The notes beneath the pieces are model-generated. The model had not been told where the DNA came from. It worked only from the letters and a program-made list of their open reading frames with translations, and did no database searches. Positions 3,527-62,515 of a DNA stretch of 64,000 bases are shown one piece after another (positions within the stretch are counted from its first letter, which is position 1; each line of letters starts with the position of its first letter). This DNA comes from Subtercola lobariae. GTDB taxonomy: Bacteria > Actinomycetota > Actinomycetes > Actinomycetales > Microbacteriaceae. The stretch covers positions 124,001 through 188,000 of the forward strand of contig NZ_BMGP01000002.1 in assembly GCF_014640255.1 (NCBI RefSeq). The letters are read 5' to 3'. The position numbers and the translations under genes are program-made.

Positions 3527-4327
3527 TTACGAGAAAACTGAGCCCGGAACGCCACCGTCTATCACCTCCAAGATCGTCTTGGCGTGCCACACAAATCCGA
3601 GATCAGAATCGCTCGAAACCCGACCGGAATAGATTCCGACTAGCTGAGTCGTATCCTCGGGGGCTACCGAGTACAGGCCTTCCCGGCCGACCGGATTGTA
3701 CATTCGACCAGCTGGATTGAGGTAGACCGGGGATCCGGACATTCCGGGGCGCGTGCGGCTATCCACCAGAAATCGCGGAAGACCGTCTATCGGCAAATGA
3801 AACTCGCTGGCGATGGTCCCTTGGACCCACACTCCAACACCGGTTGCCCCTCCGTTTCGCCCAAATGGATAGCCAACGATCATCACGCGATCAGGAACGG
3901 CAGGAGTGAATCGGTACTCGCTGTCATCGATAACTGGCGGGCGCTGCATGTTCAGGGCGTGAGCAAGCGAGACGGCCTCGTCGGCCAGGCAAAGTGCACT
4001 TACATCGATGTCGGCGCCTCCGTCCGGATGCTCGATCCACGTCGCGTCGAGTTCTGAGGTTATGAGTTGCATCGTGGAAGTCTGCTTGACCAATACGCCT
4101 TCGTCGTCTTGTGTAGTCGCTGTAATCCGTATCGAGGTCGGATTTACTCTCCTCTTCGGATCTAAGTACTCGTTCGATCCCGGTTTGCGACCAGAAAGCA
4201 CATGCCGGTTTGTAATCAAAAAGCGACCCCGTGGGGACACCACGATGAATCCGGTGCCAGTCATCAGCAAGACATCTTCGAATAGCGTTTCCAGAAAGCA
4301 TGATTCTAAAGAGACTCCATTTATCAC
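3527..4327 (-). CDS. Trypsin-like serine protease domain protein
   Basis: A 266-residue protein with the chymotrypsin-fold triad: TGTGFIV and then ITNRHVLSG (His42), the aspartate in GADIDVSAL (Asp108), and the nucleophile in RPGMSGSPVY (Ser197). There is no signal peptide or membrane helix, so it is probably cytosolic, unlike secreted HtrA proteins, and it lacks a PDZ domain. Cytosolic trypsin-like proteases are often encoded in bacterial defence loci as accessory or effector proteases. It starts with GTG at 4327 and diverges from the methyltransferase gene across a 220-base gap holding a perfect inverted repeat. Substrate unknown. Confidence 0.75.
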   Translation of the reverse strand: MINGVSLESCFLETLFEDVLLMTGTGFIVVSPRGRFLITNRHVLSGRKPGSNEYLDPKRRVNPTSIRITATTQDDEGVLVKQTSTMQLITSELDATWIEHPDGGADIDVSALCLADEAVSLAHALNMQRPPVIDDSEYRFTPAVPDRVMIVGYPFGRNGGATGVGVWVQGTIASEFHLPIDGLPRFLVDSRTRPGMSGSPVYLNPAGRMYNPVGREGLYSVAPEDTTQLVGIYSGRVSSDSDLGFVWHAKTILEVIDGGVPGSVFS

Positions 4328-4547: not shown

Positions 4548-6266
4548 ATGCCTTCTTCATTGCCAGCCGCTCTCGAACGCTGGTTGCGCGCTCCTGACCA
4601 TGCCGAGGTGCCCTTGGCCTGGGTCCCGGGGTTGGATTTGGCGGAGCGGCAAGCACTCGGAGCCGCGGGCGGAATCGCCAGAGAACTTCTCCCCCCGAGG
4701 ACAGTAACGGCGCTTCCTGCCGATGTTCGAGACTGGATGGTGTCAGGCCCGTCACCCGACGCGGGAGACCTCGCGGAGTACCGTGCAGTACTTGAGGCTG
4801 ATGCGGACGGTGGCCTTGCGGGCCTTTATTCCACGATCGTGAAGCGAGCACACCGTCGTCAACTTGGAACATTCTTCACTCCGACAGCGGAAGTGAAGTT
4901 CATGCTGGACCTGTGGGACGAGATTGAAGAATCGTCACCCGATGTGGTTATCGATGTCGGGGCCGGGGTGGGTGTCTTCACCGCAGAGGCGGCAAAACGC
5001 TGGCCCCAGGCTAAAGTCGTCGCAGTAGACATAAACCCGGTAACCCTCGGGCTTCTCGCCGTTCGGCTTTTCTCTGATTCGGTCACCGATTCAGCGAAGG
5101 ACTTCGAGGCCCGCGTCACGTTGGTGCGCGAAGACTTCACGACTTGGTTTGTATCCGGGCGTGCGCCGGAACCTGGGCGCCGCCTCGTTCTCGGAAATCC
5201 GCCCTATACCCGCGCACAGCTTCTCGAACTTGCTGAGCGAGAACGTCTCCATGAACTAACCGACGGTCTCTGTGGGTCGAGGGCGAGCTTGTCGACCGTG
5301 ATCACGGCCCTCACTCTGCAGCGCCTTGCGCCGAGCGATGGGCTGAGCTTGCTCCTTCCGGCGCAGTGGCTTGAGTCACAATATGCTCGCAAATTGCGCT
5401 CGAGACTGTGGAACGAACAGCGCCGTAGCGTGGAACTTCGTCTGGTTGAGTCGGAAGATCTTTTCGGCGGTGCCCAGGTTGACGCCGTGGCGCTGCTTGT
5501 AGGGGCGGAGCGCGACACCCCTCGTCCGTTTCGCATCGGAAAGTGGCGTGAGCCGGAACTCGAGGAACTCGACCGCACTGAGCCGGTCCCTGATTCCTGG
5601 CGTCAAGCTTTCGATCACTCTCCGATGCTCGAGCCGCAAACCATCCTGAAAGAGCAATTCGTACTATCCGACCTCGCCGAGGTCCATCGCGGTGTGGCAA
5701 CGGGCGCAAATGCAACTTTCGTCCTTGATGAGACGGTCGCTCTAGGACTTCCCGTAGACGCAACAAGGCGAGTCGTAACACGGCTCGTCGACCTACCCGA
5801 CGATCTTGACAGCGCGGCACTCTCTTCGGCATCCGATCGCGCGATTGGATGGCTGCTCACAGCAACTAAGCTGCACGTTGAACAATCAGCGGCGCTAAGA
5901 GCGCTCATAAAAAACGCCGAAGAAAACGAGATCCACACGCGCGTCCTCTGCCAGCGTCGAAGCGACTGGTTCGATTTGACCGCTGAAGTACGTTGCCCAG
6001 ACGTCATCATTGGCGCAATGACACAAAAGCGGTTCAAACTTGTGAACAACTCGATTGGTGCGACGCTGACCAACAACCTGTATGGCATCACATGGATGCG
6101 AACGACAACTTCTAAGCAACGGCGCGACGTACTGAGGTGGCTTCGAACCGACGAGGGACAGCAGGCACTAACGGGCGTGGCCCGGCGTCAGGGTGCTGGC
6201 CTCATCAAGCTTGAACCCGGCGGACTTCGCAGGTTACCGTTACCGTCGGAAATCGTTTCTGGCTAA
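4548..6266 (+). CDS. N6-adenine DNA methyltransferase
   Basis: I chose the ATG at 4548 (GGGGG precedes it); the open frame continues upstream through sequence opposite the protease gene. The 572-residue product has the entry segment QLGTFFTPTAEV, SAM-binding motif I DVGAGVGVF near residue 135, an acidic VDINP strand, and catalytic motif IV NPPY near residue 216. The remaining 350 residues look like a target-recognition region, as in type II gamma-class or BREX/DISARM-like methylases. It overlaps the DUF3883 gene tail-to-tail by 4 bp, so the two genes presumably belong together. Likely role: host DNA adenine methylation protecting against the neighbouring nucleases (inference). Confidence 0.88.
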   Translation: MPSSLPAALERWLRAPDHAEVPLAWVPGLDLAERQALGAAGGIARELLPPRTVTALPADVRDWMVSGPSPDAGDLAEYRAVLEADADGGLAGLYSTIVKRAHRRQLGTFFTPTAEVKFMLDLWDEIEESSPDVVIDVGAGVGVFTAEAAKRWPQAKVVAVDINPVTLGLLAVRLFSDSVTDSAKDFEARVTLVREDFTTWFVSGRAPEPGRRLVLGNPPYTRAQLLELAERERLHELTDGLCGSRASLSTVITALTLQRLAPSDGLSLLLPAQWLESQYARKLRSRLWNEQRRSVELRLVESEDLFGGAQVDAVALLVGAERDTPRPFRIGKWREPELEELDRTEPVPDSWRQAFDHSPMLEPQTILKEQFVLSDLAEVHRGVATGANATFVLDETVALGLPVDATRRVVTRLVDLPDDLDSAALSSASDRAIGWLLTATKLHVEQSAALRALIKNAEENEIHTRVLCQRRSDWFDLTAEVRCPDVIIGAMTQKRFKLVNNSIGATLTNNLYGITWMRTTTSKQRRDVLRWLRTDEGQQALTGVARRQGAGLIKLEPGGLRRLPLPSEIVSG

Positions 6267-7030
6267 AGCACTGCCGAGGGAACACTGGACATCAGCGCGC
6301 TCCTCGGCAGATTGACAAGAGCTTCTGTCCACCGCCCGTTCCCGTCGTCCGGTACGTATCGCTCAAATTCCGAAGCACGGCACCAGCCCAATATCGTCGC
6401 AGTCTCACCATCGAAGCCGCAAGCCACCATGGCCCACTGCCGAGAGTTTCGTCGGCCAACCTCGTACTCGTTGCGCGACAGAAAGAAACGGAAAGTCTTG
6501 CTTGAATTGCTCATCGATGTCTTGACTTCAAGCATTCGCGGACCTGTTCCAATCGTAGGAGCGCTGACGTCATAACCGAACCGATCACTTACTAAGCTGA
6601 CCCGGCGCACCTGAGCAACGATCTCGTAGTGCCCAAGCGCGCGAAGTTCATCGACGCACCACGCGACTACCGCTTCCTCGCCCAACGCTCCTACTATCTC
6701 TCGAACATCGACTCCGTCGATCACGGTGTCCGACGCTGTAGAAGCGGCGAGTAATGTTGAAAGGAGTGGCTCGGCCGCCGGGTCAGGGAGCGCCAGAAGT
6801 TCACGTAAGTTCTCACTTCGGTGAACTCGCCCGTTTGAGACGACGACGAGGCCGTGCTCAACGAGCAGAGAAAGAGCGTTGTCCAGGTCGAGGCGAGGGA
6901 ATCGACCTAAAGTCACGGCGTTTCGGAAGACCAAGTCGAGCGTCGCAGACCCCGTACCACCTTCGTCGACCGCTCGCACGACCCACAACGCGGCACTGAT
7001 CTGAAAGTCCGAGATCGATAGCGAGCCCAT
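6263..7030 (-). CDS. DUF3883-type PD-(D/E)XK nuclease-like protein
   Basis: A 255-residue protein. The C-terminal half resembles DUF3883. FGYDV gives Asp154 and LEVKTS gives Glu168 and Lys170, the spacing of a PD-(D/E)XK nuclease core. The following FRFFLSRNEYEVG segment is characteristic of the family. The N-terminal 110 residues look like a small helical or winged domain. It starts 8 bases after the SNF2 helicase stop, so it is the last gene of the ParB-SNF2-DUF3883 operon, and its end overlaps the methyltransferase gene. It is probably the cutting subunit of a restriction-like system (inference). Confidence 0.75.
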   Translation of the reverse strand: MGSLSISDFQISAALWVVRAVDEGGTGSATLDLVFRNAVTLGRFPRLDLDNALSLLVEHGLVVVSNGRVHRSENLRELLALPDPAAEPLLSTLLAASTASDTVIDGVDVREIVGALGEEAVVAWCVDELRALGHYEIVAQVRRVSLVSDRFGYDVSAPTIGTGPRMLEVKTSMSNSSKTFRFFLSRNEYEVGRRNSRQWAMVACGFDGETATILGWCRASEFERYVPDDGNGRWTEALVNLPRSALMSSVPSAVL

Positions 7031-7038
7031 ATCAGTCT

Positions 7039-8913
7039 TCAGTTACGTCGTCGCCCGAGCTCGGCGAGCACAGCCTCGAGGTCTGCACGGTCATCCAAAA
7101 CGGCGGCCGGCTCTTCGTCGTCTGGAAGAGCTAATTCGACAAGGCGGTCGTCCGCCAGGAGCTGAGATAGCCGCTGAACCTTTTCTTCAACGCGGCGATC
7201 GACTCGCTCGTCGATACTCCCGATCGTCGAAAAAATGGTGAAGGTTGTTTGGGTGTCCTGAGGCAATCCAAGCCTGTGAATACGATCGAGCGACTGCAGA
7301 TACTGACCAGCGTTGAACGTCCGGTCCAGGTAGATCGCATCATGGCATTCCATGTGTAGACTCACTCCCTCAGCAAGCGCAGCGGGGTTCGCAAGAAGCA
7401 CTTTGCAGTTCGGATCACGACGGAAGCGTTCGATTTCCCGTTCACGAGTTCGAACTCCCTCAGGGGCATCGTCGGAGCTTGGCACGCCTCCGTAGACGAT
7501 GGCGGGCTCGAGCGCAGCGAGCTGCTGTTCGAGGTCCAGCAAGTTGCCTGGAAAATTTGACCAGACCAAGGTCTTATTCCAAGTAGGCCTTCTGGAGTTT
7601 TCAGAAACCAGTCGGCATACCGCCTCGATCTTTGCCGAAATCTCATGATCGGCGTAGCGCTCAACCATCTCTGCGAGATGCGAACCCGCCGGAATCGCCA
7701 GAGGGGGGAATCTGTACGCCCGTGCTGCGTCCGCACTGGAGCGCAGTAGCCTCGGGCTCGAAGCGGCCTGTAGGAGATACATCGTGATCTCGCCCATCTG
7801 CGCAAACATGAGTTGATCGCCGCGGGATAGATCGAGCAATCCCGCATACCGGTTGAGCAGTGCGTCATAGATTTCTTGTTGGAGGGGATTCATCGGCAGC
7901 TGGACCCGACGGATGTCTGAGTCGGGAATATCGAGTTCGGTTTTAGTAGTCCGAACGAACAATGGAGTAATCGCTTCGTTTATAACTCTCATAGCCCGTG
8001 GTGCGGGCTGAGGCGCCATTGCCCAGTCCGGAATCCTTCTGCTCGCTCGACCCGAAGGCCAAAGGAAGTCCAAGAGGAACTTGAGATCGCGGGGGTGGTT
8101 TGGTGCTGGCGTTCCCGTCAACACATCCCGACGAACGACGTGCGGAGCCAGAGCGAGCAACGCACGTCCCCATTCGCCGCTGATACCACGCTTCGCTCGG
8201 TGTGCTTCGTCAAGGACTAAGTGGACATGGTGGCGCGATGCCCAAGAGATGAGATCGTCAATCGCTCCCGGAACTCGCTGATAATTGATCAGAATTACAT
8301 CCGCGTTCGGGATTCCTTTCGATCGGACGCGCGCCACAGAAGGGGCGGGGGAAAGTACAGAAACGGCGTCTTCTTCCCAAGCGCCGAATGCGGAAAGCGG
8401 AGCAATTACAAGGAGCTTGTCCACTCGCCCTCGTGCCTGTTCGATTGCGTGCAGCGCGTAGGCGACGGTTGTCTTACCCGCACCCGGCACAGAAAAATTG
8501 GCACCGTGGTGGAGATGCATCAGCTTGTTCAGGTCACGGACCTGGAATTCTCGAAGTGTTCGAATCACCCGATAAAGCCCTCGAGCGAGCTCGTCAGATA
8601 AGTCGATCCCTCGCGCCGTGTCGGTAGCGTCGACGGTGTTTAGGAAGCTAATATCCCTGCCATCCTTGACGAGCAGCGCACGCACATTATCGTCCACTTC
8701 AAACGCGACATTTCGAGATCGCAGTGTCCCTGACAGCCGCTGTCGCGAGCGCAGGAACCCGTCTGCCGACACGCGAATCTCCGTACGAGCCAGATTACTG
8801 TCGCCACCGACGACCAACGCGATCTCGTTCCACGAATCGCCCGAAATTTCCGTGCCAGTGAGGACAACGCGAGCCGGACGCGACTCAAGACGAGCCCGGA
8901 GCTGGGCGGTCAC
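7039..8913 (-). CDS. SNF2-family DEAD/DEAH-box helicase/translocase
   Basis: A 624-residue superfamily 2 ATPase. Walker A is SVPGAGKTT (about 141-149), motif II is LVLDEAHRAK (DEAH 235-238), and motif III is LTGTPAPNHP (about 265). The C-terminal lobe carries IYLDRTFNAGQYLQSLDRI, a SNF2-type motif V/VI with QSLDRIHRLG. The first 120 residues form an accessory N-terminal domain. Translation begins at a GTG inside the GTGA overlap with the ParB-like gene, so the two are coupled. SNF2 translocases with methylases and nucleases occur in DISARM, Dpd and related defence systems. None of those gene sets is complete here. Confidence 0.88.
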   Translation of the reverse strand: MTAQLRARLESRPARVVLTGTEISGDSWNEIALVVGGDSNLARTEIRVSADGFLRSRQRLSGTLRSRNVAFEVDDNVRALLVKDGRDISFLNTVDATDTARGIDLSDELARGLYRVIRTLREFQVRDLNKLMHLHHGANFSVPGAGKTTVAYALHAIEQARGRVDKLLVIAPLSAFGAWEEDAVSVLSPAPSVARVRSKGIPNADVILINYQRVPGAIDDLISWASRHHVHLVLDEAHRAKRGISGEWGRALLALAPHVVRRDVLTGTPAPNHPRDLKFLLDFLWPSGRASRRIPDWAMAPQPAPRAMRVINEAITPLFVRTTKTELDIPDSDIRRVQLPMNPLQQEIYDALLNRYAGLLDLSRGDQLMFAQMGEITMYLLQAASSPRLLRSSADAARAYRFPPLAIPAGSHLAEMVERYADHEISAKIEAVCRLVSENSRRPTWNKTLVWSNFPGNLLDLEQQLAALEPAIVYGGVPSSDDAPEGVRTREREIERFRRDPNCKVLLANPAALAEGVSLHMECHDAIYLDRTFNAGQYLQSLDRIHRLGLPQDTQTTFTIFSTIGSIDERVDRRVEEKVQRLSQLLADDRLVELALPDDEEPAAVLDDRADLEAVLAELGRRRN

Positions 8914-10403
8914 TCGCCGTTCTCCTCGTCATTCGTGATTGGCACCTTGATGTCGGCAACGATGCTTAAGACTTCCTCGAGTCGCGATTGAACCAGATCT
9001 AATGTCGTTTTCAGATCATCAATCCTCGGGGAAAATTCAGGGTCATCGGCCACATCTTCCAGCGCCTCGACGAGGGACTTGAGGCTGCTGGCCGCCGAAT
9101 CCGCGCTGCTCTGGGGGCGCACGAGCCGGTTGGCGTCTTTCTTGCGTTGAGCGGCGTTATTAAGGCCTTCCGCCACGCTACCGTGCATGACCCGCTTGAT
9201 TTCTTGGCCGGTAAGGCTAGTACCGTCCGCCATCGCAAACTCGCGCTCGGGGTCCTGGGACGCCTTCACCACTAAGTCGAGCACACGTTGCGTAACGGAA
9301 GACGAGGCCGGTGTGGACTCGCTGCTATCGACATCTAGAAGATCTAAGCCTGCAGGCGCTGCTGCGGGGGCAGCCGTCTCGGTACTTGTTTCTTCAGCCG
9401 AAAGCGTCTGCGTAATCGAATCCCCGTCTCGTCCCGCCTCAGCGAGGTGGGGAACCAAGTCTCGCGTTATCCAATCACCTTTGGCTTTTCGAAGCTGGTG
9501 AACAGCAGAGTGTCCTGAAAAGTAAGCGATCAGCCATCCGCGAATATGTTCGTCCGCAGGTTCGCGTCCGTACAAGTTCTCAATGTCGCGCACCTCCTTC
9601 AACAAATCAATCCAGTTTTGCTGCTGGTCTTCGACCGTTACGAAGATCGAGAGCGGAAGTGGGTCTGCCGTCAACGAGCGCGACCGGTTCATCAGGACCA
9701 ATACCTCGCGCAGCCGTTTGATGTCCGCAGCTTTGTCGACGCGGAGGCTCGCCGCGATCGATTCATCGGTCATACCGTTGTCATACAACGACTGAATCAT
9801 CATGAGACGGGCGACAAGGTTGTATTCGTCCTTAAACTCCTTCTGCTGCTGGAGCACGCTTTCCAGGTCGAGCTCTTCTTTATTGTCTGTATCCCCCGGC
9901 AACACCGCGACACGAATCGTTGTCGAAGCGGGAATCTTGCCTTCCGCGACCAGACCCCGTAAGAGAACGCAGCGAGAGTTACCGTTGATGAGCTTGCCGC
10001 TCCGGGTGATAACGCCAGGCTGAGCCTGCCCCTGCGATTCGAGGCTGCCGCGAAGCCCATCAATATGGCGGTGCGATTTTCGCACGAGATCCGTGACAAT
10101 CGCCTGCGCCTTCGGGGACTCGGGGTCTGTCTCCACGACGCCTCTGTCTGGGTGATCAGCCAGGAGCGGGGCAATCCGGAAACTTCTTGCGTTCAGAATA
10201 GGCACATCGAGCGGGAGTTCGATGACTTCAAAAGTTTGGAAATGACCACGAAACTGGAGACGCTCGGTTTCCGGGATGTCCGGACGCTGGCGCAGCTCGT
10301 CAATGGCCTTCTTTATGTGAAGCTCCCGGCTCGTACTGCTCACTCTGTTTCCCCTCATGGCGCCTGCACCCTTTTCACTCAGAGTAGCGACAGCTTCGGA
10401 CAT
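8910..10403 (-). CDS. ParB/sulfiredoxin-fold domain protein
   Basis: A 497-residue protein whose ParB/Srx-like core spans about residues 60-240. KLINGNSRCVLLR (about 137-149) is the nucleotide-binding signature and is preceded by an IDGLRGSLESQGQ helix. A Q-rich helix-turn-helix-like part follows (LYDNGMTDESIAASLRVDK). The C-terminal third is acidic, with a linker rich in Ala, Thr and Ser and a final coiled-coil segment. It is the first gene of the operon and overlaps the SNF2 gene. Similar folds occur in DndB- and DpdB-like modification systems and in ParB CTPases. I infer a DNA-sensing or modifying subunit. A second start at 10358 is possible. Confidence 0.75.
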   Translation of the reverse strand: MSEAVATLSEKGAGAMRGNRVSSTSRELHIKKAIDELRQRPDIPETERLQFRGHFQTFEVIELPLDVPILNARSFRIAPLLADHPDRGVVETDPESPKAQAIVTDLVRKSHRHIDGLRGSLESQGQAQPGVITRSGKLINGNSRCVLLRGLVAEGKIPASTTIRVAVLPGDTDNKEELDLESVLQQQKEFKDEYNLVARLMMIQSLYDNGMTDESIAASLRVDKAADIKRLREVLVLMNRSRSLTADPLPLSIFVTVEDQQQNWIDLLKEVRDIENLYGREPADEHIRGWLIAYFSGHSAVHQLRKAKGDWITRDLVPHLAEAGRDGDSITQTLSAEETSTETAAPAAAPAGLDLLDVDSSESTPASSSVTQRVLDLVVKASQDPEREFAMADGTSLTGQEIKRVMHGSVAEGLNNAAQRKKDANRLVRPQSSADSAASSLKSLVEALEDVADDPEFSPRIDDLKTTLDLVQSRLEEVLSIVADIKVPITNDEENGE

Positions 10404-10489
10404 CAGAGCCCGATGTGACGTTTATCCTGTTGCTACTTCGTGTGCTCTTATTTACGCGCCAGCGATCAGCGCGATGATCGATGCCTCCG

Positions 10490-10711
10490 TTACAGGGATT
10501 CGAGGACCATTCGTTTCGCAAAGGCAGCGCTTCCGCTGTGGCCGAGGAACACTCTGCTCGCGTCGACCGCATCGAGCAACGTAATCGCTGCCGCGTCTTG
10601 CTGGTCGAGGAATCTGCCCTCTCTCGCCGCTGCGCCACTCGCGCCGGAGTAGGTTTTTACGGCGGGATTGGCGCCGGCCGTCAACAACCCGATTTGCCGA
10701 GCCAGTGTCAT
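10490..10711 (-). CDS. Small hypothetical ORF upstream of the ParB-like gene
   Basis: A 73-residue frame that starts 12 bases after a purine-rich GAGAG and ends 86 bases before the ParB-like gene. The composition is Ala/Leu/Ser-rich with GC-rich third positions, but no family is recognised. A second minus-strand frame over 10452-10853 has plausible protein-like ends and an arginine-rich middle, so the locus could also be a frameshifted gene. The region contains the divergent promoters for the ParB-like and nuclease-like genes, and I give this ORF low weight. Confidence 0.3.
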   Translation of the reverse strand: MTLARQIGLLTAGANPAVKTYSGASGAAAREGRFLDQQDAAAITLLDAVDASRVFLGHSGSAAFAKRMVLESL

Positions 10712-10892
10712 CTACTCTCTGTGGCGATTCAATCGGGTCGATATGCTTGCCTCCTCCCGGGATGACCGTCAGCCCATGCGACTCAATGGTGCCTGCGGTT
10801 CGATGAACGCGAACATCGAGTTTCATCAGTACACCGGCTTCTTCCGGGTGCACTCCAGCAAGAGATAGTTATCAGGGCGATTGGATTGGGCG

Positions 10893-12278
10893 ATGGAGCA
10901 TTTGTTACCTGAGGGCCGCGCGGTTATCGACGCCCTCGAACAATTAGGTCAGTCGCTGGGTTACGCGACTACTCGCGAGCATACGGTCGGGCGGTCGGCT
11001 GCCATAGATCTGTCCTGGACTGCCGCTGACTCAAACGATGTCCCTCTGTTCGTTTTTGAGGTCGAAAGCACCGCATCAGCGGGCCTCGCGAACAACGCGA
11101 TGAAGATCTTTGGTTCCCCGTCGAAGTCACTTCCCAAGCCGTTGTTTTTCTTTCATCTGGTCGTCACGGCATCACCGACGAATGAGCGAATCCGAAACGC
11201 TCAACACACGTGGGGCAATTACAACTACCGCGTGTATCGGCTGTCCGAAGCCGCACAACGGCGCGATATGTTCGTTGAAATTCTCGGTCAACATCGTCGA
11301 GTGTCTAATCGCATCGATATCCTCTGGCTCGCGGAAGTCGCCGGGCACCCCTTCTGGGGTGGAATCGAAATGATTCCTGATGTTTTAGGCGAGATCTCTA
11401 ACCTGCGGTTTGACACTTCCTACCTACATTCATTTGCATGCCTCGCGATTGCTCATCCGCACCTCCTGCCGTATTTCACGCGGCGGCTCAGAGAACTGGA
11501 TTCCGGTGTCTGGGCTGCCGCAAGCCGCGAAGGCTACCGCGGGGGCCCCGGGGAATACATCCCGGGCCTGCTGGAATTGGCCATTCGCATTGCATCTGGA
11601 GACCTTCTGGACGCTGAAGGTCCAGAGGCGTTTGAGAAGTGGGCGCTGCGGACAGGGCAGTTCCCGAGAACAATCGACGCGGCATTCGGACTATCCAGAG
11701 ACTACGACGGGTTCGTGCTAGGTATAGCACCGTTCCAGTACGCGCTGAGCATGGCAGCGTTGAGGAAGCAACCTCGGTCGCGCGCGTGGGTGATTACCGA
11801 TATGTACCGCCTCCTCTTAGAAGAAAGCAACCAGGGTCTTAGCCCTAAGTTCCTTTTGCCTGGAACGACGTGGCTTGCTTTGATGATCGCCTTCGAAGCG
11901 GCACAACACCGCAATGATTCGGTTGTTGGCAAGGTTGACCTCGAGCAGATGTATCTGACGGCCTCAAAGATAGTCAGAGGTGCGGGCGGTATTCCCGGTA
12001 ACTGGCTCCAATGTCCGCCTGACCCAGTCTCAGAGCTGGAGGATTTCAATGTTGCGCTTGATAGCGCCACGGAAGGCGCGCATTTGCCTTCGTTAGAGGA
12101 TCTCGCGCGCCACGCGTCCCCTTCGGTCGGTGCCGATCAAGATTCTGCGACGGCTGAGGCGATTCGCTGGTGCCTAACAGCGCTGGTGTCTCTCGATGCC
12201 TATCAGGGCCCGATGAGCGGAATCGTCGCGTTAATGGGCCTTCAAATCCCTTCCACCGCTGAAGACCTAGCACCCTAA
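10893..12278 (+). CDS. Putative PD-(D/E)XK-like nuclease, 461 residues
   Basis: The start is uncertain between the TTG at 10881 and the ATG at 10893; I use the ATG. The N-terminal 80 residues look like a restriction-nuclease-fold core. AAIDLSW supplies an acidic residue (Asp39), and after a strand LFVFEVESTAS supplies Glu56 and Glu58, followed by a helix starting near NNAMKIF. The lysine of the classical motif is replaced by Glu, as in some divergent members. The remaining 370 residues are helical with no recognised domain. It is divergent from the ParB-like gene and precedes the helicase-nuclease gene by 153 bases, which suggests a shared role. Confidence 0.55.
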   Translation: MEHLLPEGRAVIDALEQLGQSLGYATTREHTVGRSAAIDLSWTAADSNDVPLFVFEVESTASAGLANNAMKIFGSPSKSLPKPLFFFHLVVTASPTNERIRNAQHTWGNYNYRVYRLSEAAQRRDMFVEILGQHRRVSNRIDILWLAEVAGHPFWGGIEMIPDVLGEISNLRFDTSYLHSFACLAIAHPHLLPYFTRRLRELDSGVWAAASREGYRGGPGEYIPGLLELAIRIASGDLLDAEGPEAFEKWALRTGQFPRTIDAAFGLSRDYDGFVLGIAPFQYALSMAALRKQPRSRAWVITDMYRLLLEESNQGLSPKFLLPGTTWLALMIAFEAAQHRNDSVVGKVDLEQMYLTASKIVRGAGGIPGNWLQCPPDPVSELEDFNVALDSATEGAHLPSLEDLARHASPSVGADQDSATAEAIRWCLTALVSLDAYQGPMSGIVALMGLQIPSTAEDLAP

Positions 12279-12313
12279 CGCATCCGAGCGCGCTCCGGTC
12301 GCGATTGAACAGT

Positions 12314-12348
12314 CGGCGGCCCGGGTATCAGGGGCGCGCTGGCCGCCG
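12314..12348. terminator. GC-rich stem-loop between nuclease-like and helicase genes
   Basis: CGGCGGCC (12314-12321) pairs with GGCCGCCG (12341-12348) across a 19-base loop. It lies 36 bases after the stop codon of the nuclease-like gene and 84 before the helicase start. No T-run follows, so it may attenuate rather than stop transcription. Confidence 0.3.
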
Positions 12349-12431
12349 CATCGATCACTCAAAACGTCAGCGATCAGTCGCACGATATTCGGGTACGCAG
12401 TACGGTGCTTCATGAGGAATAGGGGAATCGC

Positions 12432-14939
12432 GTGACAAGCATTTTCGAGAGCATCAACGCAGCAGATCCAGCGTCATCGACGCTGGACCCGAAGCGACTG
12501 TTCCGAGCACTACCCAAACCAAAGAATTCGAAGTACCAGTTTCCGCATGATATTCAAACTGAAGTTTGGGACATGTGGTTCCGTCGCCGCGACGAAGCCG
12601 ACCTTATCTTGAAGATGAATACCGGAAGCGGGAAGACGGTGGTCGGGCTTGTGATTGCCAAGAGCTCGCTCAATGAAGACAAAGGCCCGGCGGTTTATCT
12701 CGTTCCTAACACCCAGCTGCAAGAACAGGTTGGAATCACAGCATCGGAATTGGGGATCGCCTGGACCGACGACCCTGCCGACCCCGCGTTCCGACAGAGC
12801 GAAGCAGTGCTGGTCGTTCCGGTCCACACCATGTACAACGGCCGAAGCAGGTTTCGGCTCGAGGGTCACGGAAACACCGTTCACGTCGGGACTGTAATAG
12901 TCGACGACGCCCACGCATGCATTCCAATCATTGAGGATCAGTTCTCTACAACACTCGCCGACACGACACCCGCCTATAAGGGTCTACTCAAGCGCTTCAA
13001 CAGCGTCCTGAAGGAACAATCGCTCAGCGGCTGGACTTCGATCACGACGGGCAGCGAGACCCAGGCCGTCCCAATTCCCTACTGGGCATGGGCGAATGAA
13101 CTGGCATCGAGCTATGCCCTCCTAAATGCCGTGACGGAAACGGACAGCAAGGACCATCAGTTCAAGTGGCCGTTGATGCGCAATCAGCTAGCGCTGTGTG
13201 ACGTTGCGTTCACCTCCAAGGAAGTTGAGGTTCGACTTCCGTATCCGAATCTCGCTGTTATTCCGTCGTTCACCAACGCAGCTCGCCGTATCTATATGAC
13301 TGCCACCCTGGCGGACGACGGCATCCTCGTGACGAAAATGGGAGTCGACCCGAATTGTGTGACGCGTCCGATCGCGCCATCATCGGCAAGTGACATCGGC
13401 GATCGAATCATTCTCACCCCCGTCGAAACCAGCCGAATGGTGACAATCGAGGACGTGAAGGCCAGCGCCGCCAACTGGGCAACGAGTCTCAATGTCGTCG
13501 TGATCGTGCCGTCCCGACATAGAGCGAACGAATGGCAACCGTACACGAGCGAAATACACGAGAAGACGACAATTAAGGCGATCGTGAAGCGCCTGAACAC
13601 ACAGCATGTTGGTCTCGTCGTGCTTATAGCTCGTTACGACGGCGTTGACCTTCCCGGTGATGCGTGCCGCGTTCTGATAATCGATGGATTGCCCGAGCGA
13701 TATTCCCCGGCGGAACTGGTCGAAGCAGCCGCGATCGGCGGAACCGAGGTCATGAGCAGCCAGCAGACGCAACGAATCGAGCAGGGTATGGGTCGCGGCG
13801 TGCGAGCCACGGATGACTACTGTGCAGTAATTCTGCTCGACCCCCGCTTAGTCGGCCGGCTGTATTCGGCGGCTGACCTTCACCAGCTTTCACCGGGAAC
13901 GCGCGCGCAATACGAATTGTCTGCGACGTTTGCGAAGAGTGGCCGTAGTAAGCCAATGTCTTTTTTCGCGGATGCTGTCGACGCCTTTCTTGCCCGCGAC
14001 AGCGCATGGACCAACGCTAGTAAGGACGCGGTCGAAGGCCTGACCTATTCGAGTCTGAGTTCAGTGCAACCACTTCTGGTGGCTGAACGCGACGCCTTCC
14101 GAGAAGCGTGCGCGGAGCGTTACACGCAGGCGTTCGAACTCTTGCAAGCTCAATTTTCGAGCATCTCCAATGCGAGGTACAGAGGATGGATTAAGCAGCG
14201 AGCTGCGAGTTATCTTGAACTCGTTGATCCTGTGAAGGCTCGCGAAATTCAAGTGAAAGCCCGAATCGATAACAACTACATTTTGAAAGTGCCAACCAGC
14301 ACAGCCGAGCCAAAGCTAAGTCATCTCGGGAATCAAGCGGACGCCGCAAGCGCCCACCTCGGGCAGTACGCGAAACCACGAGACTTGGAGGTCGTAGTCG
14401 ACGGAATCCTCTTTGATCTCGTGCCCAGCACGGATAAGAACAGTCACAAGCGATTCGAGGCTGCCCTTGACATCGTGGGAAAGATGCTCGGATTCAATGC
14501 CTCGCGGCCAGATGCGACGACCGGAATCGGTCCGGATAATCTGTGGGCAATAGGTCAAGACTCATACTGGGTAATCGAGTGCAAGAGCGAAGCTGTTGCT
14601 TCTCAAGTCTCGCGCGAATACCTCGAGCAGCTGACACACTCTGCTGACTGGTTCGAGTCTCAATACGACATAAGCCAGCACCCCTATCTCCCGTTACTCA
14701 TTCACCCGTCGCGCACCCCGATGTGGGACGCAGTCCCCCGTCAGACTGCGCGGGTTATGTCCTTTGACCTCCTGGCAGAGTTCCGGATTGCGGTTCGGGG
14801 GTACATCACCGCCTTGTGTTCAACCGACAGCTACCGAGACCCGTCGGAGATCAGCAAAAACCTGAATCACTTCGGTTTCGCGGCACGAGACCTGGCTAAT
14901 CGTTGGACTCAAACTTTCCGAGCTCCCGCTAAACGCTAA
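12432..14939 (+). CDS. DEAD/DEAH-type helicase with C-terminal nuclease domain
   Basis: An 835-residue protein starting with GTG after AGGGGAA. Helicase motifs are MNTGSGKTVV (Walker A, about 62-70), IVDDAHAC (motif II, about 157), YMTATLADD (motif III) and QGMGRGVRATDD (motif VI), giving a full SF2 motor. Near the C-terminus GPDNLWAI (about residue 700) and WVIECKSEA (about 713) give a PD...ECK nuclease core, followed by a helix with EYLEQLTHSADWFE. The fusion of an SF2 motor with a PD-(D/E)XK domain is typical of defence and repair enzymes. It is the last gene of the putative defence assembly. The motor and nuclease calls are firm; the biological role is inferred from neighbours. Confidence 0.85.
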   Translation: MTSIFESINAADPASSTLDPKRLFRALPKPKNSKYQFPHDIQTEVWDMWFRRRDEADLILKMNTGSGKTVVGLVIAKSSLNEDKGPAVYLVPNTQLQEQVGITASELGIAWTDDPADPAFRQSEAVLVVPVHTMYNGRSRFRLEGHGNTVHVGTVIVDDAHACIPIIEDQFSTTLADTTPAYKGLLKRFNSVLKEQSLSGWTSITTGSETQAVPIPYWAWANELASSYALLNAVTETDSKDHQFKWPLMRNQLALCDVAFTSKEVEVRLPYPNLAVIPSFTNAARRIYMTATLADDGILVTKMGVDPNCVTRPIAPSSASDIGDRIILTPVETSRMVTIEDVKASAANWATSLNVVVIVPSRHRANEWQPYTSEIHEKTTIKAIVKRLNTQHVGLVVLIARYDGVDLPGDACRVLIIDGLPERYSPAELVEAAAIGGTEVMSSQQTQRIEQGMGRGVRATDDYCAVILLDPRLVGRLYSAADLHQLSPGTRAQYELSATFAKSGRSKPMSFFADAVDAFLARDSAWTNASKDAVEGLTYSSLSSVQPLLVAERDAFREACAERYTQAFELLQAQFSSISNARYRGWIKQRAASYLELVDPVKAREIQVKARIDNNYILKVPTSTAEPKLSHLGNQADAASAHLGQYAKPRDLEVVVDGILFDLVPSTDKNSHKRFEAALDIVGKMLGFNASRPDATTGIGPDNLWAIGQDSYWVIECKSEAVASQVSREYLEQLTHSADWFESQYDISQHPYLPLLIHPSRTPMWDAVPRQTARVMSFDLLAEFRIAVRGYITALCSTDSYRDPSEISKNLNHFGFAARDLANRWTQTFRAPAKR

Positions 14940-17484: not shown

Positions 17485-18390
17485 ATGGCGTATTGGTGGG
17501 CGAGTCAGAACAAGAACTATCGGGTCGTTATTCCGAATGGGACCTTATGGACACGGCCTCGAGTAGATGGCGTGATGCCGGAGAATCGGCGCTTGCTCGA
17601 AGACCTCGAAATAGATGACGTGGTCTTTCACTACGGGGGCCCGTACGTCAGAGCAGTGAGCCGGGTGGTGGCCTCCGCCACGGACTGGCCCCGACCCCCT
17701 GGCTACCCGTATGGTCCGCGTGAATCGGAAGGAGTCAACGATGACGGGAAGCTCGTCCGCGTCGAGTTGATTTCATCCGGCTTCGAGATTCATCGAGACG
17801 AGGTCGCTCAGCTTATTTCCCACGGGACACCCGGGCCGCTCTCTCAATACGGCGTTCCTCGCGAAGCGTACATTTCGCCTCTGACCGTCGGCGACGCTGA
17901 GGCTCTGCTGGCGGCCGTAGGGATTTCAGTCCCGAACCGCACGTTGCCTGGTCGGCCTCACGAAGACTGGATTCCTGGGAGTGGCCCGACCGATGCCGAG
18001 GCAATAGCGAGGATTCGAAAGGAACAGGGGGCCCTGAGAGCTTTCCTGCTCGACGGATCGGAGGGAGCACCTTGCGCCATCTGTGGGCTGGAGACGCCGG
18101 CGGCGTTTCTGGTGGCTGGCCACATCGTCCCTCGCTCAGAGTTAGAAGATTCAGAGCGACGACGGTTCGATTCGGTGGCAATACTTGTCTGTTTGTTCGG
18201 CTGCGATGCCCTCTTTGAAAACGGATATGTGGTAGTCGATAGTGGCGGCAAGGTTGCCGCCGGCCGGGCAACCAATGATCCCACGATCGCCTCGGAGATT
18301 TCTCAGCGCCTCGGTACACCGTCAAGCGGATGGTCGTTGGCGACCTCAGCCATGTTCGCAACGCATGCCGCTCAGCATGCAAGTACTTAG
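17485..18390 (+). CDS. EVE-HNH modification-dependent endonuclease-like protein
   Basis: A 301-residue protein with two recognisable parts. Residues 1-105 resemble an EVE (PUA-like) base-reading domain: YWWASQNKNY, LEDLEIDDVVFHYGGPYVR, and a proline-rich WPRPPGYPYG loop. Residues 195-255 resemble an HNH nuclease with a zinc knuckle: CAIC (Cys197/200), AGHIVPRS (His213), and CLFGCDALFENG (Cys236/240). EVE-HNH fusions are known type IV-like enzymes that cut DNA carrying modified cytosine. The usual central Asn of HNH is not obvious (DSVAIL stands at that position), so activity should be tested rather than assumed. There is no clear ribosome site. It sits among defence-type genes. Confidence 0.7.
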   Translation: MAYWWASQNKNYRVVIPNGTLWTRPRVDGVMPENRRLLEDLEIDDVVFHYGGPYVRAVSRVVASATDWPRPPGYPYGPRESEGVNDDGKLVRVELISSGFEIHRDEVAQLISHGTPGPLSQYGVPREAYISPLTVGDAEALLAAVGISVPNRTLPGRPHEDWIPGSGPTDAEAIARIRKEQGALRAFLLDGSEGAPCAICGLETPAAFLVAGHIVPRSELEDSERRRFDSVAILVCLFGCDALFENGYVVVDSGGKVAAGRATNDPTIASEISQRLGTPSSGWSLATSAMFATHAAQHAST

Positions 18391-18453
18391 TATGACGTTG
18401 TCGTACCCAACCGTGTCATGCTCGGGATACTGAATCAGGGAAAGTCAATACAA

Positions 18454-19287
18454 ATGAGCCACGACGATGATCTTGTTTACCATTACACCGACGCCAACGG
18501 CCTAAAGGGCATTTTGGATTCTGGTAAGTTCTGGGCAACGGACATGCAATATCTGAACGACTCAGCGGAGCTGACACTGCTTCAGGTTGAAGCCATCGAG
18601 GAATTACGCTCCTACGCCTCAATCCATCTTCAGCATGCAGAGATCATTGAATTGGCCATTCCGATGTTGCCGCTAGAGTCAGGATCGCACTACAGCATTT
18701 CGTTCTCTGAGGATCCGGACTCATTGAGCCAGTGGCGCGGCTATGGCGGGGTCCAAGGGTACGCAATTGGATTCAGTAAGGACTCGCTTGCCCGGGTCGC
18801 TCAGAACGATGACGATGGGGCGCGGTTCGGATCGTGCGAATACGACCCCACAGTAAGGGCAGCGCAGATTTCGAAAACAGTCCGAGACGCGATCTCTATG
18901 CTCAACGACGAAACGGCCATGCACTCGCCTACCTGGGGCGGCGCCCCAGCAGAGCTAGCGGTAAATGTGGCGGGCGGCTTCGGTGCAGTCGCCCCGTTTA
19001 TCAAGCACGAATCATTCCACGAAGAGCATGAGTTTCGGATCGTCGTCCACAGTGTAAGCGGAGGACGCATAAGAGTTCGCAACCGGTCCGGCGAACTCGT
19101 GCCATACATTGAGGTCTCGGCACCAGTTGGTACATCGGGTTCCGAAGTAGCGTCGATGAACGGATTGCGATCAATAGTGATAGGTCCGACCGCGACAAGG
19201 AAGCGTATGAAATCGCTCAGTGCGTACCTCAGCTATCTAGGGCTCCAGACGACCATCGAATTGAGCAGCACTCCCTACTTGCCCTGA
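18454..19287 (+). CDS. DUF2971 domain protein
   Basis: A 277-residue protein starting at 18454 with GGGAAAG upstream; an in-frame ATG at 18418 is an alternative. The start LVYHYTDANGLKGILDSG followed by FWATDMQYLNDSAEL is the hallmark of DUF2971. Further typical segments are FSEDPDSLSQWRGYG and ESFHEEHEFRIV. The family is common in mobile and anti-phage loci, but its biochemistry is unknown. It lies directly after the EVE-HNH gene in the same direction. Confidence 0.75.
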   Translation: MSHDDDLVYHYTDANGLKGILDSGKFWATDMQYLNDSAELTLLQVEAIEELRSYASIHLQHAEIIELAIPMLPLESGSHYSISFSEDPDSLSQWRGYGGVQGYAIGFSKDSLARVAQNDDDGARFGSCEYDPTVRAAQISKTVRDAISMLNDETAMHSPTWGGAPAELAVNVAGGFGAVAPFIKHESFHEEHEFRIVVHSVSGGRIRVRNRSGELVPYIEVSAPVGTSGSEVASMNGLRSIVIGPTATRKRMKSLSAYLSYLGLQTTIELSSTPYLP

Positions 19288-57071: not shown

Positions 57072-59074
57072 TTTTGCTCCAATATTTTCGATCCCACATC
57101 ATGTCCTTCTGCTGTCGCTGCTTCCAACCCTCTTGGCCAAACGGCATCTCCGACAGTAACGACGGTGAGGCTTTCCTTGACAGATGCAGTTGATGAAACG
57201 TGCACAGGGTGTCCATTGCAAACAAAAATCACGCTACTTACATCGTCGCGCGCCGAATACTCGCCTGTGATCTGGTTATAGGTTTGAACCGTATTTCCGT
57301 CCACTCTCGATACTTCGGTCCATGTGCGAAGATTCACCCCAAGCCGACTGAGCTGACCGAGACGAGATACTAACGTCACGGGATCGAGTCCCAATCCCAC
57401 AGCATCGAAAGGAGTTACCACTTCGACCGTGGCTCCTTCGCGACTCAAGTGCTCGGCTATGCCTAGCGCATCCCGCCTGCGCTCTGAATCGACAACAATC
57501 ACACTTCTTCCTGTCCAGGGTACAGATGTTCTCAAGACCTCGATGTCGGTGATGCAGATCGGCGAATGGCGAAATTGTTGCGGCACTGCGGGGACACTTC
57601 CAACAGCAACAATCACAGCACTGAAACTCGCGAGGAGGTCAGGAATGTCCGTGGCGGGGGACATCAGCCTAAGGTCAATGTGAGACTCACGCGCAATCGC
57701 CGCCTTGAAGAATTCCACCCCTTCCTTGAACCTACTCCTGCCAGGAAGCTCCGAAGCTAGGAGTAGGCCTCCGCCAACGCTCGCCGTCCTTTCGAAAATT
57801 GTGGTGTCGATGCCTCGATGACCGGCCGCCAGTGCAGCCTGCAATCCAGCCGGGCCCCCGCCTATTATGGCCAAGCGCTTACGCCCCTTCAGCGATCTAG
57901 TGGTGATCTGGATCGACTCCCGTCCGGTCTTGGGATTCATCGTGCATCGCACCGGGTGGCCGTACCAGGTATTGCCGACACACGCGATATTGCATCCAAT
58001 GCAAGGGATGATGCTGTCTTGCTTGTTCGCAACGACTTTGTTGACTAGATCAGGATCTGCAATATGCGCCCGAGTCATTCCCACAAAGTCGGCTGTGCCA
58101 GCATCGACGAGCGCGGACGCATCAGCGACGGCTCGTATGCCCCCTGCCACGATTACCGGCAACTTTAGCGATGCGCGGATCACTCGGACCGCCGCATAAT
58201 ATCGAGACGTTTTCGTTCGCTCGTCGGGATGCCCGACCAGGTAGCCCAAAGCGCTCGAATTGGTCGCAAAACTAAATGAAACATAATCGATCAGGCCAAG
58301 TTCTTCGAGACGCACTGCAAGCCTTTGAACCTCGGCTGTACCGAGATCTTGCGGTTCCGGAGCGTCATGATCCGCTGTGATAATCGGTAGGCGAACTCCA
58401 AGCAACAAGGTCGGCATTTCGACTCGGATTCGCGTCAGTAAATCTTCAAGGAATCGGCTTCTCAAAAGAACATCAATGCCCCCAAACTCATCTTCGCGGA
58501 AGTTGTATTTGCCTGAGAGGAACTGATGAACGAGCTTCCCCTGGTCGCACTTAATCTCGACGCCGTGCAAACCTCCACGGTGCGCTCGTCTCGCAGCGGC
58601 CACGTAATCATCGACTGCGTTCGCAATCTGATTGGTGGTCATGCTCATCGGTACGACGTAGGAGCGGGAATGAGGAATCGCCGACGGCGCGATGGCGGGA
58701 ACGAGTTCCTCGTGCCAGACCTGCCCCCCGGGATGGTATAGCTGCTCGAAGACGGTTGCATTGACTGCACGCGCGAGCTCGGAAATTCGGCTGTACATGG
58801 CAACGATTCCATCGTCGCTCTCAGCGGCGCCCCACATCGGTCCCTGTGCAGCCTGGGTCGGGCCCACCGCGGTCTCACCCATTATCAACATCCCGACCCC
58901 GCCGCTGAGTCGGGCACCTACGTAGTCGATCATCGCCTCTTGACCAGAGGCCGATCCATCCACAAACCCATATGTGTGCGCAGTCACCACAATTCGGTTT
59001 TTGATGGATCGCGTCGATATATTATGCGGGGTGAGCGCGCTTGCGACTATGCGATAATCGTCTGCGTCAGTCAA
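57068..59074 (-). CDS. Old-yellow-enzyme/FAD/Fe-S oxidoreductase (2,4-dienoyl-CoA reductase-like)
   Basis: The start is ambiguous: a TTG at 59074 lies eight bases after AAGGA, and a GTG at 59080 overlaps that site. The product is about 668 residues. The N-terminal TIM barrel is of the FMN old-yellow-enzyme type (NRIVVTAHTYGF, GGLHGVEIKCDQGKLVHQFL). A [4Fe-4S] motif CIGCNIACVGNTWYGHPVRC links to a C-terminal FAD/NAD(P) domain (LAIIGGGPAGLQAALAAGHR). The family reduces enoyl or dienoyl bonds or demethylates amines. Coupling to the STAND ATPase gene upstream is unusual. Confidence 0.85.
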   Translation of the reverse strand: MTDADDYRIVASALTPHNISTRSIKNRIVVTAHTYGFVDGSASGQEAMIDYVGARLSGGVGMLIMGETAVGPTQAAQGPMWGAAESDDGIVAMYSRISELARAVNATVFEQLYHPGGQVWHEELVPAIAPSAIPHSRSYVVPMSMTTNQIANAVDDYVAAARRAHRGGLHGVEIKCDQGKLVHQFLSGKYNFREDEFGGIDVLLRSRFLEDLLTRIRVEMPTLLLGVRLPIITADHDAPEPQDLGTAEVQRLAVRLEELGLIDYVSFSFATNSSALGYLVGHPDERTKTSRYYAAVRVIRASLKLPVIVAGGIRAVADASALVDAGTADFVGMTRAHIADPDLVNKVVANKQDSIIPCIGCNIACVGNTWYGHPVRCTMNPKTGRESIQITTRSLKGRKRLAIIGGGPAGLQAALAAGHRGIDTTIFERTASVGGGLLLASELPGRSRFKEGVEFFKAAIARESHIDLRLMSPATDIPDLLASFSAVIVAVGSVPAVPQQFRHSPICITDIEVLRTSVPWTGRSVIVVDSERRRDALGIAEHLSREGATVEVVTPFDAVGLGLDPVTLVSRLGQLSRLGVNLRTWTEVSRVDGNTVQTYNQITGEYSARDDVSSVIFVCNGHPVHVSSTASVKESLTVVTVGDAVWPRGLEAATAEGHDVGSKILEQK

Positions 59075-61574: not shown

Positions 61575-62515
61575 GTCACGTCTATCGTTCCGGCTGGCTT
61601 CCCGTTGCAAGTGGTCAGGTCCCATTCCAACAACCTCTTAATCTCCGGGTCAGAATCGATGCTCAAAATATTCATGTGCTCAAGCAGCGTAAGAGCGACA
61701 AGCGATGCGGCGTTCTCGTTACCGCTGTCTACTTTTACCGCAAGCCCGAGCCCCTTGCCTGGAAGCGCGGCAGCCCAGAGTCCATCGGATCCAGGTTTGG
61801 CTAAGACGTCATACGACTTGTTGAGATGTGTCTCAATTCGATCTGTCCCACCCAGAAACGATGGCGAAGTACGGTATGCATCGTGCATCAGGCCGAGCCC
61901 CATTGATGCCTTGTTCGCCAGTTGCGCATATGACCGTGCAAGCTCGTTAAGTTGCACAGCATAGGTTGGGGCACCGCATCCATCAATTCCAGGGATGAGC
62001 GTGGCCGGAAACTGAGACTGGAGCGACCGCTTTATTAGCTGTTGAACGGGATGGCTAGGGTCGACGTAATTATTCGTTCCCCAACCACGATGTCCGGAAA
62101 GAATCAGCATTGCCGCATGTTTGCCCGAGCAATTGTTAGATGCTGGACGGCGCGCTACCCAGGATCTGTAAGGCTCGTGTGTTCCGCAGAGTAGGTCAGT
62201 TTCGGACAGCCCATTATCGCTGAGCAAAGAGAGCACCTTCTCGACATGCCAATCCTCTCCGTTGTGAGAACTGCCCATGAGAGCCAGTGCATCGGAATCG
62301 TGAACCACTTCTGCGAGTCCTCCGTCGAGTAAGGCCGCGATCTGGAACGGCTTCCCGCAACTACGGAGGGCGGTGGTTCGATCTCGTTCACCTCGCAGAT
62401 CTAGATCGGACGTAGCGTCCGAAACGACCCACGAGACTTCATGCACCATCTCGACGGAACCACAGCGGCGAACGATGACGCTCGCATTCCCGGCCCTAAC
62501 CAATGTCCAGGCCAA
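61544..62515 (-). CDS. L-asparaginase II (AnsA/ReAV type)
   Basis: A 323-residue enzyme of the Rhizobium etli-type asparaginase family, with a probable TTG start at 62515 that overlaps the upstream stop. The serine-lysine motif is in LRSCGKPFQIAALL, and ASSHNGEDWHVE-like MGSSHNGEDWHVE follows. The metal-binding Cys/Lys motif is NNCSGKHAAM, and the second Cys is in GIDGCGAPTYAV. It should hydrolyse asparagine or a related amide to the acid and ammonia in the cytosol. It is the second gene of the five-gene operon. Confidence 0.88.
   Translation of the reverse strand: MAWTLVRAGNASVIVRRCGSVEMVHEVSWVVSDATSDLDLRGERDRTTALRSCGKPFQIAALLDGGLAEVVHDSDALALMGSSHNGEDWHVEKVLSLLSDNGLSETDLLCGTHEPYRSWVARRPASNNCSGKHAAMLILSGHRGWGTNNYVDPSHPVQQLIKRSLQSQFPATLIPGIDGCGAPTYAVQLNELARSYAQLANKASMGLGLMHDAYRTSPSFLGGTDRIETHLNKSYDVLAKPGSDGLWAAALPGKGLGLAVKVDSGNENAASLVALTLLEHMNILSIDSDPEIKRLLEWDLTTCNGKPAGTIDVTWTDDLLHTV

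Follow-up and report, generated by a model that had tools for sequence, protein, structure and literature searches.

Several described systems join some of the gene types considered here. Dpd and Dnd include the ParB-superfamily proteins DpdB and DndB and the SNF2 protein DpdE, and CglI and NgoAVII, which are ATP-dependent type II systems, consist of a methylase, a separate ATPase and a separate nuclease, the nuclease being of the PLD type and the ATPase of another class, with no known ParB protein. SNF2 fused to DUF3883 occurs in restriction-modification (R-M) operons according to the available part of the 2013 HEPN survey, which called DUF3883 a novel restriction endonuclease (REase) domain (PMC3710099), and in a 2008 study SWI2/SNF2 helicases were linked with nucleases of the HNH or EcoRII-like kind, while the MORC loci treated there had broader links, to methylases and Vsr (PMC2292703). 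Here we analyse a 64,000-nucleotide stretch of the Subtercola lobariae contig NZ_BMGP01000002.1 (the window), in which a methylase gene and an operon of ParB-like, SNF2 and NOV_C/DUF3883 nuclease genes occupy positions 4548–10403. A first-pass annotation had proposed that these four genes and the two that follow form one distinct defence system. We found that the recurring unit is ParB–SNF2, together with a nuclease and a methylase, and that the four-gene core is conserved far more than chance would give, which does not hold for the six genes as a whole.

The ParB–SNF2 unit and its conservation

The minus-strand operon runs from 10403 down to 6263 in the order ParB-like, SNF2, NOV_C/DUF3883. 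The gene for the ParB/Noc/KorB-like protein (8910–10403, minus strand), assigned from alignment and predicted fold, shares 4 bp with that of the SNF2-family DNA translocase (7039–8913, minus strand), recognised by Pfam SNF2-rel_dom and by its motifs, and an 8-bp gap separates the latter from the gene of the PD-(D/E)XK nuclease (6263–7030, minus strand), recognised by Pfam NOV_C. The end of the nuclease gene (6263) and the end of the gene for the Eco57I-like DNA methyltransferase with its NPPY motif (4548–6266, plus strand; PADLOC and weak Pfam matches) overlap tail to tail by 4 bp. All six large open frames lie where the first-pass annotation had placed them, and its picture of a minus-strand operon that overlaps the methylase and diverges from genes 5 and 6 agrees with the coordinates. 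The divergent intergenic region (10404–10880, no strand assigned) probably holds the operon promoters. The host assembly comprises 4.09 Mb in 22 contigs, and we regard the locus as accessory because a ParB match was absent from all six other same-genus genomes sampled. The nearest relative among the loci found belongs to a Microbacterium (L020), with an SNF2 protein 76% identical to that of the window; no parS-like palindrome common to the two was found in the stretches compared. Upstream of ParB, at 5980–8458, L020 carries a gene that looks recombinase-like by eye and one for a PIN_12-domain protein.

Because the ParB-like protein, scanned singly against bacterial genome contigs, gave no relatives, an SNF2 alignment served as the query for the same contigs. 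It returned at least 443 relatives, and the best 80 were kept as the 80-locus set (66 Actinomycetota, 8 Pseudomonadota, 3 Acidobacteriota, 2 Chloroflexota and 1 Planctomycetota); members from Bacillota are known from plasmid and phage records. In 77 of the 80 loci the gene immediately before SNF2 is ParB; the exceptions are L037, where SNF2 starts at the locus end, and two loci that look decayed, L041, which lacks ParB, and L051, which lacks it too and has a split SNF2. NOV lies directly downstream of SNF2 in 50/80. In a 91-locus set restricted to SNF2 open reading frames (ORFs) of more than 480 residues, with the window, plasmid and family loci included and L018, L037 and L051 dropped, ParB is present in 90, upstream of SNF2 and on the same strand, with −4 bp as the commonest gap (35/90). 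NOV is present in 60 of the 91, on the same strand every time, and in 46 of these 60 its ORF overlaps that of SNF2 when both are read from the first start codon.

Searches that started from ParB do not presuppose SNF2. Among 299 family genomes they gave six matches including the window, and all of the other five adjoin SNF2. Nine plasmid records matched, of which eight were fetched; SNF2 adjoins ParB in all eight and NOV is present in six. Among 396 genomes of the phylum there were 23 profile matches, and the six at E<1e-8 (own genome included) all adjoin SNF2, five of them with ParB preceding SNF2 and the weakest, a partial match at 1e-9 (L130), with SNF2 preceding ParB. The 17 weaker matches are generic ParB domains, none of which has an SNF2 of this profile in its 1.5-kb flanks (0/17). 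In viral contigs, ParB accompanies SNF2 in 13 of 15 loci and NOV in 9 of 15, counts in which L155 and L159 seem to represent a single element and L154 and L163 come from the two ends of one contig; L163, without ParB, starts inside SNF2.

Two side observations concern these neighbourhoods. A cluster of proteins of about 210–340 residues (c4wh; for example L090, 7429–8139) occurs in 46/80 loci, mostly just before ParB and on either strand; by eye the N-terminus of its members is winged-helix-like and the C-terminus of the Cx2C type, with no Pfam match above the cut-off. Enterococcus plasmids often hold a relative of this SNF2 protein (52 of 68 plasmid records).

Core proteins and their partner genes

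The ParB-like protein gave nothing useful in Pfam, PADLOC or NCBIfam, and the label it received in the first-pass annotation is borne out by alignment and predicted fold. It is organised as an N-terminal ParB domain, a middle helical or helix-turn-helix (HTH) part and a variable C-terminal part, with mean identities of 39%, 28% and 21%, respectively. The AlphaFold model built from a 36-row alignment has a predicted local distance difference test score (pLDDT) of 88.2 and contains the ParB N-domain fold followed by the HTH part. Its leading Foldseek matches in the PDB are Noc, Spo0J, KorB and ParB, two of them passing E 0.001 (best 7.4e-4), and we predict that the protein resembles the clamps Noc, ParB and KorB. 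R144, invariant in the 36 rows, lies within NGN(T/S)R, which by eye appears to be the ParB nucleotide motif; in the proteins covered by the available part of PMC12704722, replacement of the arginine in this motif abolished binding of nucleoside triphosphate (NTP).

The SNF2 protein matches Pfam SNF2-rel_dom (6.4e-14) and keeps its motifs intact in an 11-row alignment (GAGKT 144–148, DEAH 235–238 and QSLDRIHRLGL). The nuclease matches Pfam NOV_C (1.7e-7) and carries an N-terminal helical or winged domain. Its residues E118, D154, E168 and K170 are invariant in a 34-row alignment, and its model (pLDDT 91.6) is nearest to the folds of the SPARDA nuclease, HincII, Hjc and PvuII with a best E of only 2.9e-3, so that both the E...D...ExK residues and the fold of a PD-(D/E)XK enzyme are present, the fold matches being weak. 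The methylase ORF opens at 4008, and alignment with the relative in L020 begins at the methionine at 4548, which favours that start. The methylase matches PADLOC MTase_II at 1.9e-26 and, weakly, Pfam MTS (6.5e-5) and Eco57I (2.8e-4), its sequence finds no match in the PDB at E 0.01, and it is predicted to be a self-marking N6-adenine enzyme. With a methylase beside a NOV nuclease, the window carries R-M genes in the broad sense.

The surroundings of the pair were examined with profiles built from recurrent neighbours, whose families were named from a single representative of each cluster: C5 methylase (1.3e-56), NaeI (2.7e-124), Vsr (5.3e-18) and DUF1156 (only 1.8e-3, below the cut-off), the DUF1156-like cluster also showing a DPPY motif. 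The 80 loci hold the C5 methylase in 56 cases, the DUF1156-like methylase in 12 and the Eco57I-like class of the window in 8 (7 strongly, L064 weakly), and three loci hold two classes. At least one methylase is present in 73/80, within 5 kb in 71/80; as an internal control, 55 C5 methylase genes lie within 5 kb versus 4 at 5–10 kb. The methylase is swappable, with at least three classes represented. Vsr occurs in 51 of the 80 loci and a NaeI-family endonuclease in 23. A further cluster, c10up, may be an REase, one member matching PADLOC REase_II (3e-21) and another having no Pfam match. The slot after SNF2 is taken by a NaeI-family gene in 2/80 loci and, in the plasmid locus L009, by a MutH-like gene that matches a type II REase model in the model's C-terminal half. 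In L072, L092, L097 and L099, which lack NOV and NaeI, SNF2 is followed immediately by a Vsr-family gene. Plasmids of Lactococcus, Limosilactobacillus and Enterococcus carry overlapping or closely spaced genes in the order mod, res, ParB, SNF2, an order also found in four viral-collection contigs, one of which equals the L. reuteri plasmid in length and is probably its record. In Priestia and Lactiplantibacillus plasmids the pair lies near a C5 methylase and Sau3AI/MutH-family nucleases.

We mapped these partners onto a FastTree tree of 99 SNF2 rows, 85 of them with a single methylase label, for which the program warns of long branches. The methylase class changes 4 times on this tree versus a mean of 20 and a minimum of 17 in 200 label shuffles, NOV presence changes 11 times (shuffle mean 31) and NaeI 14 times (mean 23). 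The window, L020–L024 and L026 form a supported clade of 7, all with the methylase class of the window. Since shared ancestry alone lowers such counts, they show joint inheritance and not a physical link.

Proposed function and its alternatives

We hold with moderate confidence that the core (4548–10403) is a defence locus of the R-M type, a methylation-guided, ATP-dependent restriction module or a companion of restriction systems, centred on a ParB-type clamp and an SNF2 motor, with NOV as the nuclease. The methylase, judging by its class, would mark host DNA. The ParB-like protein would probably load onto DNA as an NTP-gated clamp via its middle HTH part and would then hand unmarked DNA, as it comes in, to the co-translated SNF2 motor, which would translocate along the duplex, and the NOV PD-(D/E)XK nuclease would cut. 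Candidates for target recognition are the middle part of the ParB-like protein, the N-terminal domain of NOV and the methylase.

ParB–SNF2 is found elsewhere with other methylases and nucleases, and we therefore regard it as a transferable ATP-dependent core or companion. A broader idea, which we offer tentatively, is that ParB-type NTP-gated sliding clamps, familiar from chromosome segregation, have been taken into a general restriction module as its common sensing core. ParB–SNF2 would then plug into restriction systems with methylases of at least four kinds (C5, DUF1156-like, Eco57I-like and type III Mod) and with nucleases of several (NOV, NaeI, Sau3AI/MutH-type and type III Res), turning the methyl mark into clamp-loaded, ATP-driven destruction of foreign DNA or long-range two-site communication on it. 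Sau3AI is a type IIE enzyme. The available part of PMC4081073 places NaeI in the same type, and a two-site idea unifying the partner nucleases is speculation on our part.

Several observations weigh against the restriction-module reading. The TM-scores of the ParB-family fold matches are about 0.12–0.25 by query length, and the fold match is therefore partial. No methylase of the three classes is present in 7/80 loci; of these L046, L055 and L087 are cut short, and L069 and L082 also have no such methylase, L082 holding an AspBHI-type enzyme. In the Enterococcus plasmid loci L010 and L148 no methylase was recognised beside the pair; a sigma-like protein (about 870 residues) takes its place, and SNF2 follows ParB and this protein. 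L166, from the viral collection, is a C-terminal SNF2 half with no ParB in the preceding 8 kb. NOV, NaeI and c10up are all missing from 12/80 loci. The c10up gene occurs in 12/80, 10 of them also with NOV, and NOV is present in 17 of the 35 loci with a classical REase (NaeI or c10up). Since c10up and NaeI loci often hold NOV too, NOV is not necessarily the chief restriction enzyme, and NOV as the sole restriction enzyme everywhere is contradicted; from the 17/35 overlap it follows that the trio of ParB, SNF2 and NOV accompanies a complete type II system in many hosts. Nor did NOV prove to be a strict alternative to NaeI. The raw association (both 9, NOV only 51, NaeI only 16, neither 15; Fisher 4e-4 with phylogeny ignored) is unsupported once relatedness is considered, independent pairs being not significant (median p 0.25–0.375).

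The presence of the pair or trio beside NaeI (23/80), c10up (12/80), type III mod-res and Sau3AI would suit an accessory role, in which the pair, with or without NOV, limits self-damage, regulates restriction or destroys cut or escaping DNA next to a complete classical R-M system. We consider this rather unlikely: 45/80 loci have neither NaeI nor c10up (a count without a systematic search for other REase families), and no classical REase was recognised in the window's class, so the trio, or gene 5, must supply the nuclease there. It is also improbable, and slightly more so, that the pair serves the methylase itself, clamp and motor moving it along DNA to complete host methylation, as has been suggested for DarB-type methylase–SNF2 proteins. 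The methylase class does fit the SNF2 tree better, with 4 changes versus 11 for NOV and 14 for NaeI, and SWI2/SNF2 ATPases are linked to adenine methylases in the available part of PMC5512222. Against such a helper stand the NOV gene directly behind SNF2 in 50/80 loci, the overlap of the SNF2 and NOV ORFs in 46/60, and the pairs that adjoin complete type III mod-res operons.

A single new defence system made up of the six genes, the first proposal, is very unlikely, although the genes are contiguous. Gene 6 (12432–14939, plus strand), a helicase-nuclease with Pfam DEAD (6.6e-10) and Helicase_C_2 (1.4e-11) matches, is a full-length member of the PADLOC candidate PDC-S28 (residues 5–829 on 4–827 of 831, E 1e-270), which matches 13 of 249 family genomes, own included. 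ParB, SNF2 and NOV were absent from the six neighbourhoods fetched around gene-6 homologues, and among L007–L099 only L033 matches PDC-S28, weakly (E 1e-22). The six-gene system is rejected for gene 6 on this ground, and gene 6 is probably a separate defence candidate and no member of the core. Gene 5 (10881–12278, plus strand), with a PD-(D/E)XK-like N-terminus (FEVES) assigned by eye, is optional or unrelated. It has no match in Pfam, PADLOC or NCBIfam, and its profile finds nothing credible in the PDB (best E 0.0054). A full relative (E 1e-46) overlaps the end of the NOV gene in L036, the only other trio locus with one among L007–L099 and L103–L147; no relative is present in L020 and no homologue was found in plasmids, and of the matches in 2/249 family genomes one is our own and the second covers 75 residues. 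The presence of gene 5 in two trio loci may reflect chance or a rare partner. The first-pass grouping thus stands for the four-gene core, which recurs as ParB–SNF2–NOV with a methylase in other genomes, and fails for gene 6. A chance assembly of genes within a defence island, without shared function, is scarcely credible: the window does hold other defence-like genes, but adjacent order is kept over five phyla in the 80-locus set and on Bacillota plasmids as well. This contradicts chance for ParB–SNF2–NOV and leaves it possible only for genes 5 and 6.

Three further regions of the window contain defence-like genes. Beside the methylase (3527–4327, minus strand) lies a trypsin-like peptidase gene that matches the PADLOC candidate PDC-S45 (E 9.6e-19), possibly a further defence gene. 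Downstream of PDC-S28 (17485–19287, plus strand) an HNH_2-like protein (Pfam 4.8e-4, just below the cut-off; PADLOC HNH 2.6e-4) is followed by a DUF2971 protein. At 59067–61625 (minus strand) an AAA/NACHT-like NTPase with TPR repeats (Pfam AAA_16, TPR_12) has no PADLOC match at 1e-3.

Relation to known systems

No model in PADLOC 2.0, NCBIfam or Pfam names the whole locus, SNF2 and NOV matching as domains only and gene 6 alone belonging to a named candidate, PDC-S28, which is not part of the ParB–SNF2 module. Our literature search, which did not take in most subscription papers or REBASE, turned up no paper that presents ParB–SNF2 as a restriction module. The ParB–SNF2–NOV operon is not described in the available parts of PMC12839542, PMC12704722, PMC10853773, PMC3710099, PMC8011034, PMC2292703, PMC5512222, PMC3459991, PMC4081073 and PMC11811056. 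If the restriction-module reading is right, the at least 443 SNF2 relatives in one genome collection point to a widespread restriction-associated module so far unnamed, ParB-type clamps would gain a new role, and the question arises how one clamp–motor pair serves unrelated methylases and nucleases.

The first-pass annotation had set the locus apart from DISARM, BREX and Dpd by their missing markers, and none of these markers appeared among the proteins scanned. DISARM likewise combines an SNF2 protein (DrmD) with a methylase, but the DrmD match here is partial, at 32.4 bits versus a cut-off of 610, DrmB (DUF1998) and DrmC (PLD) have no match among the seven locus and ten flanking proteins scanned, and DrmA is matched by nothing beyond a partial alignment of the SNF2 protein with its helicase region (0.0039). 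The one match in the genome to PF09369 (MZB), which we take to be DUF1998, sits on another contig. We therefore reject DISARM, and BREX as well, PglZ being absent among the locus proteins and represented elsewhere in the genome only by a match below the cut-off. Dpd and Dnd also place ParB-superfamily and SNF2 proteins in one locus, but the DpdE match is partial (2.1e-9), the ParB-like protein has no PADLOC match and is Noc/KorB-like by predicted fold, and Dpd is rejected since its marker DpdA has no PADLOC match in the seven locus proteins, the extent of that search.

Other parallels lie with R-M systems. The operon shares with the fusion in the available part of PMC3710099 the coupling of an SNF2 helicase to DUF3883, but there the two are fused and in an operon with a HEPN-AAA+ protein, whereas here they are separate genes accompanied by a ParB-like one, with no HEPN match. 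Type I and type III R-M likewise unite a methylase, a superfamily 2 translocase and a PD-(D/E)XK nuclease, and in several plasmids the pair lies beside type III mod-res; in the present locus, by contrast, the motor is of the SNF2 type and separate from the nuclease, and a ParB-like protein is added. Pfam, PADLOC and NCBIfam searches of the seven locus proteins, to which this check was confined, found no HsdS. CglI and NgoAVII follow the same three-part plan of methylase, separate ATPase and separate nuclease, to which the present locus adds a ParB-like protein and for which it uses other classes of nuclease and ATPase.

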